A stretch of 64,000 nucleotides of DNA from Mesorhizobium alhagi CCNWXJ12-2. Its GTDB lineage: Bacteria > Pseudomonadota > Alphaproteobacteria > Rhizobiales > Rhizobiaceae. Position 1 is the first letter of the stretch; the number at the start of each line of letters is the position of its first letter. Positions 17,190 to 35,650 of this stretch are shown one piece after another. Location: the NCBI RefSeq assembly GCF_000236565.1, contig NZ_AHAM01000030.1:1-64000 (forward strand). Direction: 5' to 3'. The notes beneath the pieces are model-generated. The model saw only the letters and a list, made by a program, of their open reading frames with translations, did not search any database and had not been told where the DNA came from. The position numbers and the translations under genes are program-made.

Positions 17190-17334
17190 TTGACATTTCG
17201 CGCTGCATGATGTTCTTGCGCTGCAAATTCCGCGACGAGTACAGACTCCGAGCAGCCGACCGGGACCCCTAGAGGTATAAATCGATCCCGGAGGCCAACA
17301 CCCGGCAGCGCGATGCGCCCCCGGGTGCTTTTTG
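17190..17334 (+). ncRNA. Candidate small RNA or attenuated leader upstream of ffh
   Basis: A TTGACA -35-like box at 17190-17195 is followed 100 bases later by a strong GC-rich hairpin (CACCCGG 17299-17305 with CCGGGTG 17321-17327, plus an inner GCGC/GCGC stem) and CTTTTTGG. The upstream gene has its own terminator, so this second terminator implies a separate transcript or a premature stop in the ffh leader. The -10 box is poor. The SRP 4.5S RNA was considered and rejected because the conserved GGUCAGG...GGAAG apical loop is absent. Confidence 0.3.
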
Positions 17335-17413
17335 GCTTTGGCTATAGCTTGGCTCTCATGCGCGGAGACATTACCTCTGGGCAGGAAACCGCTCAGAGAC
17401 ACAAGGAAGTGCA

Positions 17414-33484: not shown

Positions 33485-34768
33485 CTATGCGGCTTGCCGG
33501 GCAAGCGGCGAGGCGATCAGGCGCGCGCCGTCATGGCCGGTGATTGTCGCGTCGACGATCTCTCCCGGCGTGCCGCATTCGATTGCCGCCAGCGTGAAGC
33601 CTTCCGTGCGGCCAAGCCCGCCGCGCTCGATCAGGATCGACTGGCGTGAACCCGCCAGCCTGTCGAGATGTCGCCGGTAGGCTGCCTCGCCGGCAGCGCG
33701 CAGGCGCGCGGCGCGGCGCTTGACGGCTCCGCCATCGACCTGCGGCATGCGTGCGGCCGGCGTTCCCTCGCGCGGCGAAAACGGGAAGACGTGAAGATGC
33801 GTCAGGCCGCACTCCTCCACGATCTTCTCGGAATTTTTGAACATCTCCTCGGTTTCGGTTGGGAAGCCGGCGATGATGTCGGCCCCGAACACGATGTCCG
33901 GGCGAAGCCGCCGCACATCTTCGCAAAAGCGGATCGAATCGTCGCGAAGATGACGGCGCTTCATGCGCTTCAGGATCATGTCGTCGCCCGACTGCAACGA
34001 CAAATGCAGATGCGGCATCAGCCGGTTTTCGGTGGCGATGGCTTCGAGCAAATCGTCGTCGGCCTCGATCGAATCGATCGAGGACAGGCGTAAACGCGGG
34101 AGATCCGGTACCTGACGCAGGATCGTTTTGACCAGCCGGCCGAGCTTCGGCGCGCCGGGCAGGTCGGCGCCAAAACTGGTCATGTCGACGCCGGTCAGCA
34201 CCACTTCGGCATAGCCGTTGCCGACGAGACGCTTCACCTGCTCGACAACTGCGCCCATCGGCACCGAGCGCGAATTGCCTCGGCCGTATGGGATGATGCA
34301 GAAGGTGCAGCGATGGTCGCAGCCGTTCTGCACCTGCACGAAGGCGCGGGCCCGGCCCTCGATCGCATCGACCATGTGCCCTGCCGTCTCCGTCACCGAC
34401 ATGATGTCGTTGACGCGGGCCTTTTCGGTGTCGTTGACGCCGAAATCCGGCAGTGCACGGTAATTGTGCGCCTTGAGCTTCTCTTCATTGCCGAGCACGA
34501 GGTCGACCTCGCCCATGGCGGTGAAAGCCGCCGGATCGGTCTGGGCGGCACAGCCGGTCACGATGATGCGGGCCTGCGGATTTTCGCGCCGCGCCTTGCG
34601 GATCGACTGCTTGGCCTGGCGCACCGCCTCGGCGGTGACGGCGCAGGTGTTGAAGATCACCGCGCCGTCCTTCAGTTCACCAAGGCCGGCAGCGTTCGCC
34701 TCGCGGCGCATCACCTCGGATTCATAGGTGTTCAGCCGGCAGCCGAATGTGACCACTTCCACCGCCAT
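33485..34768 (-). CDS. mtaB: tRNA t6A37 methylthiotransferase MtaB
   Basis: This is a 427-residue radical-SAM methylthiotransferase that converts t6A37 to ms2t6A37 in tRNAs reading ANN codons. N-terminal auxiliary [4Fe-4S] ligands are C10, C42 and C73; the radical-SAM motif is CDHRCTFC (C150, C154, C157). Further core signatures are '[10 protein letters not shown]', '[10 protein letters not shown]' and '[11 protein letters not shown]'. The C-terminal TRAM-like domain is short. The ATG overlaps the dapF stop (TGATG), so translation is coupled. Confidence 0.96.
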
Positions 34769-35650
34769 CAGGCGACGTCCTGGCGGTCGCGCGTCCATGC
34801 GCCGGTTTCCGGGTCGAAAGCGCCGGAAAACTCCCACTCGGCCGGTCCGGTCATGACGACATGGTCGTCGGCGCGCCATTCGATCGCAAGCGGCCCACCA
34901 GGCACGGTGACCGTGACGTTCCTGCCTGTGCGGCCGGGGCGCGCCGCGCTGACTGCGGCGGGGGCGGCCGGCGGAGCCGCAGGCCTTGGTCAGTCCGGCG
35001 CCGCGCTCCCAGGTGCGCAGCGTCAGCGCATCGGAAGCTGTGACCAGCGCGATGGAGATGTTGGCGCGCTCGGGGAAGATCGGATGGTTTTCGAGCAGCG
35101 GACCGAAACGGTCGAGATCGTATTCCCAAACGTCGCGGTCGACCCAGAAGATGGCATGCGGATTGCCCATCGAGACGACCGAGGGAGAATGCAGGACCGG
35201 AGCGTCGATAGGGCCGATCTGCAGTTCGATCCTGCTCGTATCGCCGAATTCCTCGGCCAGCGGGATCTCCTGCCAATCGAAACGCGGCACGCCCATGTCG
35301 ACCGAGATCATTCCGTCGGCATGTTCTTCCGCGTTCAATATGCCGGCGATGGTCTCGAAGGTGAAAAGCTTCTGCCCGCTCTCTGCAGCCAGCGCCTGCA
35401 CCACGCAGCGCATGCCGTTGCCGCAGGCCTGCGCCATCGTGCCGTCCGAATTGATGATCTCGATGTAGTTGGCGGTGCCCGGCGTCCGCGGGTCGTGGAT
35501 CGCCATGATCTGATCGAATTTCGTCGCAGGGTCGGCGTTGAGTGCGATCGCAGCAGCCGGCGAGACGCGGTCCGCGCGTCCGCGCATGTCGGCAACGATG
35601 ATTTCGTTGCCGAGCCCGTTCATCTTGGCAAAGGGCGCCTCGCGTGCCAT
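34768..35650 (-). pseudogene. dapF: Diaminopimelate epimerase gene with apparent frameshift
   Basis: DapF interconverts LL- and meso-diaminopimelate for lysine and peptidoglycan synthesis. The first 227 codons are normal, including the catalytic Cys76 in 'ACGNGMRC' and '[11 protein letters not shown]'. At 34961-34971 the frame then shifts by one base. The remaining C-terminal part is intact only in another frame ('[22 protein letters not shown]...'), which ends at the TGA overlapping mtaB. In the normal family sequence CGSAACAAAV the second catalytic cysteine follows here; in this window that codon is replaced as well. Either a sequencing or assembly error in a GC-rich run, or true inactivation. 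Because dapF is normally essential, an error or a second gene copy is the likelier explanation. In the current frame it reads through into mtaB as one 721-residue ORF. Confidence 0.8.

Follow-up and report, generated by a model that had tools for sequence, protein, structure and literature searches.

A frame break at the second catalytic cysteine codon of dapF in a 375-contig draft genome is very probably a local consensus error

In the 64,000-nucleotide window (the whole stretch of DNA that was analysed), dapF, a gene of cell-wall and lysine synthesis, loses its reading frame at the second catalytic cysteine. We conclude that this frame break is very probably a local error of the consensus, arising in sequencing or assembly, and that dapF is probably intact in this Mesorhizobium-like organism. 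An error is the most likely explanation because the lesion coincides with the GC maximum of the window and the remainder of the gene still bears signs of selection. The original prediction had named a sequencing error in a GC-rich run as the simplest explanation, and this reading is the best supported, not proven, on the extreme local GC content, the privacy of the lesion among the genomes inspected and the purifying selection that shows past the break when the original frame is read.

The whole gene occupies 35650 to 34768 on the minus strand, with an ATG at 35650. The features of the locus are as follows:

34970 to 35650, minus strand: 5' part of dapF, 227 codons in the usual frame, retaining the first catalytic cysteine and matching TIGR00652
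34962 to 34973, minus strand: lesion; against either same-genus genome, one base is extra and three or four are substituted
34768 to 34956, minus strand: 3' remainder of dapF, conserved in another frame up to the stop
33485 to 34768, minus strand: mtaB (tRNA t6A37 methylthiotransferase), TIGR01579, 458.4 bits, read in one frame with the broken dapF and with no stop between them
34953 to 34982: inverted repeat around the lesion, with 7-base perfect arms at 34953-34959 and 34976-34982
34921 to 34989: most GC-rich stretch of the window, containing all five 60-mers of maximal GC (88.3%)

Alignment with G001 and G002, the only same-genus genomes compared, showed that the dapF frame is unbroken in both. 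It confirmed that the gene here is normal up to the second active site and then normal one frame over, as originally predicted, and that its stop overlaps the start of mtaB (TGATG). The piece shared with the two relatives has its 3' limit at 34970. The amino-acid identity to them is 95-96% in the 5' part and 96% in the 3' part, and the remainder at 34935-34771, read in the other frame, is 96% identical to G001. In translation, ACGNG, the region of the first catalytic cysteine, is preserved. The second active-site region reads CGSAACAAAV in both relatives, and the alignment gives ACGSAGRP here instead of ACGSAAC. No codon for the second catalytic cysteine is left in any frame, a loss that the original prediction had already recognised. 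Its further claim, a difference of one base from CGSAACAAAV, held for the extra base and failed for a lone change: three or four substitutions lie beside it in 34962-34973, the count depending on the position assigned to the extra base. Because the extra base comes with these substitutions, the lesion is a cluster of changes and more than a one-base homopolymer slip.

After the break, the dapF frame reads GRPRRSQRG and runs on into mtaB without a stop, and the broken dapF and mtaB form a single open reading frame of 721 aa (33485-35650). This ORF scored 150.3 bits against TIGR00652 (cut-off 114.65), with the match confined to model positions 3-216 of 270, and 458.4 bits against the MtaB model TIGR01579. 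No uninterrupted frame passes through the DapF C-terminal domain; two pieces match in different frames. The gene resembles the DapF family (TIGR00652 / PF01678) in that both halves match and the first catalytic cysteine is present, but differs from it in being frame-broken, in lacking the second catalytic cysteine at 34962-34973 and in being open into mtaB.

All 112 relatives inspected have Cys at the second catalytic position (76 TGC, 36 TGT), and in every one of these loci the frame that contains the motif region is open for 287 codons or more. The 112 loci comprise the two same-genus genomes, the 30 best-scoring of 151 family genomes and the top 80 among 581 named relatives (Mesorhizobium, Aminobacter and Phyllobacterium among them), a selection biased to well-matching genes in which some genomes are possibly counted twice. 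Among the genomes inspected, the lesion is private to one assembly, the one assembly of the species seen, in a gene under selection.

The 3' part of dapF still carries the mark of that selection. Its last 56 codons, compared with G001 in the original frame, contain 10 synonymous and 2 nonsynonymous changes (pS 0.244, pN 0.016), and the 223 codons before the break give a pS of 0.235 and a pN of 0.016. Nine changes in the last 56 codons are private to the present genome, eight of them synonymous and one amino-acid changing. On the assumption that about three quarters of random changes alter the protein, the chance of at most one altering change in nine is about 1 in 10,000 by our own arithmetic. 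One extra private amino-acid change, at 34938, sits past the lesion, ahead of these codons, and was taken as part of the damaged stretch; with it included, two of ten changes are altering and the chance becomes about 4 in 10,000. With or without 34938, selection acted on the original frame until very recently, and no relaxation of selection was detected in this part of the gene.

The lesion also occupies an extreme of base composition. All five 60-mers with the highest GC content in the window (88.3% each, against a window mean of 63.1%) cover it. The homologous place has 81% GC in G001 and 78% in G002, which puts it in the top 0.3% and the top 1.3% of the compared 80 kb, respectively, and the GC peak here is in part due to the lesion itself. 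A genome-wide search for the 24-base lesion sequence found a single occurrence, also when up to 3 mismatches were tolerated. Between 34938 and 34965, four private substitutions are listed, and three of them yield a plus-strand G; this bias was noticed post hoc and departs from the spectrum of the window, in whose 2370 private substitutions C>G makes up 10.0% and T>G 3.7%.

In the portion of PMC4872057 drawn on here, errors and coverage drops are reported at GGCNG and CCNGCC, with a coverage dip in the absence of excess secondary structure. The corresponding portion of PMC4787001 cites Nakamura et al. on sequence-specific errors at GGC motifs and inverted repeats, and itself doubts inverted repeats as their cause. 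A context of the kind described as error-prone is found at the lesion, namely the GC maximum, an inverted repeat and GGCNG motifs, the last present but common. As far as these portions go, the likeness to sequence-specific Illumina errors lies in the extreme GC content, GGCGG, the inverted repeat and private substitutions mostly to G; the difference is that the lesion is known from assembled sequence alone and that its motifs are common in the window. The lesion holds GGCGG motifs, one of which is also found in G001 at the homologous place, and none is found there in G002. Because such motifs are common (the window contains 235 GGCNGG and 190 CCNGCC) and GGCGG is absent from G002 at this place, the GGC motif by itself is little evidence. 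In a draft of 375 contigs, reads across an 88%-GC stretch with inverted repeats would probably have been few and biased, which may have left wrong G/C calls and one extra base in the consensus. The reads would be expected to disagree with the assembly at this place, and the platform was presumably a short-read one.

An assembly that is error-prone in general was considered and rejected. Open frames of at least 100 aa, raw rather than checked genes, were compared between genomes. When the ORFs of G002 were compared with the present genome, 4 of 150 (141,966 bp) were flagged, and dapF was the sole coding break; the ORFs of G001 gave 2 of 96, dapF not being among the two. The ORFs of the present genome gave 3 of 148 against G002 and 3 of 96 against G001, and the control comparisons gave 0 of 82 (G001 against G002) and 0 of 85 (G002 against G001). 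At a looser identity threshold, the counts, mostly of raw flags, were 2/137, 6/104, 4/133 and 2/106, with 4/105 and 4/109 in the controls, which were flagged as often as the tests. The other flagged frame breaks that were inspected proved not to be coding breaks. The first falls within the ybhL leader (RF00520) that precedes a YccA/Bax-inhibitor-1-like gene, the second ahead of the probable start of ribosomal protein L28 (identified by eye) and the third just beyond a stop, in an ORF that looks spurious by eye; in a fourth, upstream of ffh, the extra base belongs to G001 and not to the present genome. The flags in C192_253 and C346_155 resemble start regions. An elevated rate of coding frameshifts was thus not found elsewhere in the assembly. 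Because dapF is the only coding break in 150 ORFs, the assembly is good overall and the error, if any, is therefore local.

Clusters of private substitutions were uninformative, with ordinary divergence dominating. A search for clusters of private amino-acid changes (102 ORFs, 29,169 codons) listed five ORFs, which by eye show ordinary divergence. Since only a single aligned piece per ORF enters this test, it is blind to frame breaks, and the dapF lesion was not listed. Two RNA elements were seen in the window. The ybhL leader at 2345-2410 on the minus strand (56.2 bits) carries a hairpin-loop change private to the present genome, and an ffh sRNA element (RF01793, 61.8 bits) lies upstream of ffh at 17284-17335 on the plus strand.

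The original prediction had proposed looking through the genome for a second dapF, ddh or dapL. Searches with TIGR00652 and PF01678 found only one dapF locus genome-wide, at an estimated completeness of 97.5%. The genome search gave no match for ddh, and the best match for dapL reached 135.5 bits, far under the cut-off of 364.7. An intact lysA, whose product uses meso-DAP, is present on another contig (479.6 bits). DapL had been offered as another DAP route, but its product is LL-DAP, which still needs epimerisation, and DapL is thus not a bypass of DapF. To our knowledge, meso-DAP is made directly only by Ddh. The sole dapF, the lack of a ddh match and the intact lysA were also counted for a consensus error. 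Counted against it were the lack of a general error excess, the commonness of the motifs, the clustered nature of the lesion and the tolerance of dapF loss by E. coli.

That tolerance bears on the next explanation, a real and very recent mutation in which a complex change in the GC-rich inverted-repeat stretch inactivated dapF and the strain survives through residual epimerisation or LL-DAP. A true loss had been called remarkable, and it is less so because E. coli without dapF is viable: a dapF deletion strain was used in experimental evolution according to the part of PMC5892946 considered here, and a relevant part of PMC6254735 cites an enlarged LL-DAP pool in a dapF mutant. Both observations would favour a real mutation, as does the finding of no other coding frame break in the sampled assembly, and a clustered change between inverted repeats is a possible place for template switching. 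Template switching itself was unsupported, however, since nothing within about 300 bases on either strand accounted for the new bases better than the flanks did after shuffling (between 69 and 99 of every 100 shuffles were as good). By analogy with the C221A variant of C. glutamicum DapF, which almost completely lost activity in the results of PMC5296763 that we drew on, a near-complete loss of activity would be expected here. The break, if real, must moreover be very recent because the 3' part of dapF is unrelaxed. We therefore regard a real mutation as unlikely. The fuller picture, a strain with a very recently inactivated dapF, a DapF-MtaB read-through protein and no dedicated DAP epimerase, which would carry LL-DAP in its wall or rely on a moonlighting epimerase, is more doubtful again. 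If the break were real, a rhizobium-like bacterium would be living without a known source of meso-diaminopimelate.

It is very improbable that the broken gene is a copy in decay and that a second, intact dapF exists at another locus. At least five of the 151 family genomes (G031, G048, G069, G097 and G109) have two full-length dapF matches, which lends this idea some plausibility, but the single locus found at the estimated completeness and the selection on the 3' part of dapF argue against it. A functional arrangement, either programmed frameshifting or a DapF-MtaB fusion with changed function, has the 721-aa open frame from dapF into mtaB in its favour and can practically be dismissed, since none of the relatives inspected shares it (G001 and G002 are unbroken and G059 is broken elsewhere), the cysteine codon is lost in every reading frame, and the five long frames examined out of several above 400 aa (in G148, G103, G025, G094 and G026) end with dapF, so that no natural dapF-mtaB fusion was found among them.

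As a likely artefact, the dapF break is a matter of curation: a GC-rich active-site stretch can yield a false pseudogene in a draft genome. All 151 family genomes have a DapF match above the cut-off, and the match is broken in at least two of them, the present genome and G059. In G059, a family member of about 5.7 Mb in 2 contigs, the dapF frame is lost some 35 bases ahead of this cysteine codon, which makes it a second family case relevant to curation. This break lies at about 2120-2175 of locus L184 on contig C1, likewise in a GC-rich run. From these two genomes, the dapF region near the second cysteine may be especially prone to consensus errors. In another genome, of about 2.0 Mb (G007, locus L183), DapF has, as judged by eye, some 35-40 extra residues past the second catalytic region, in an open frame.
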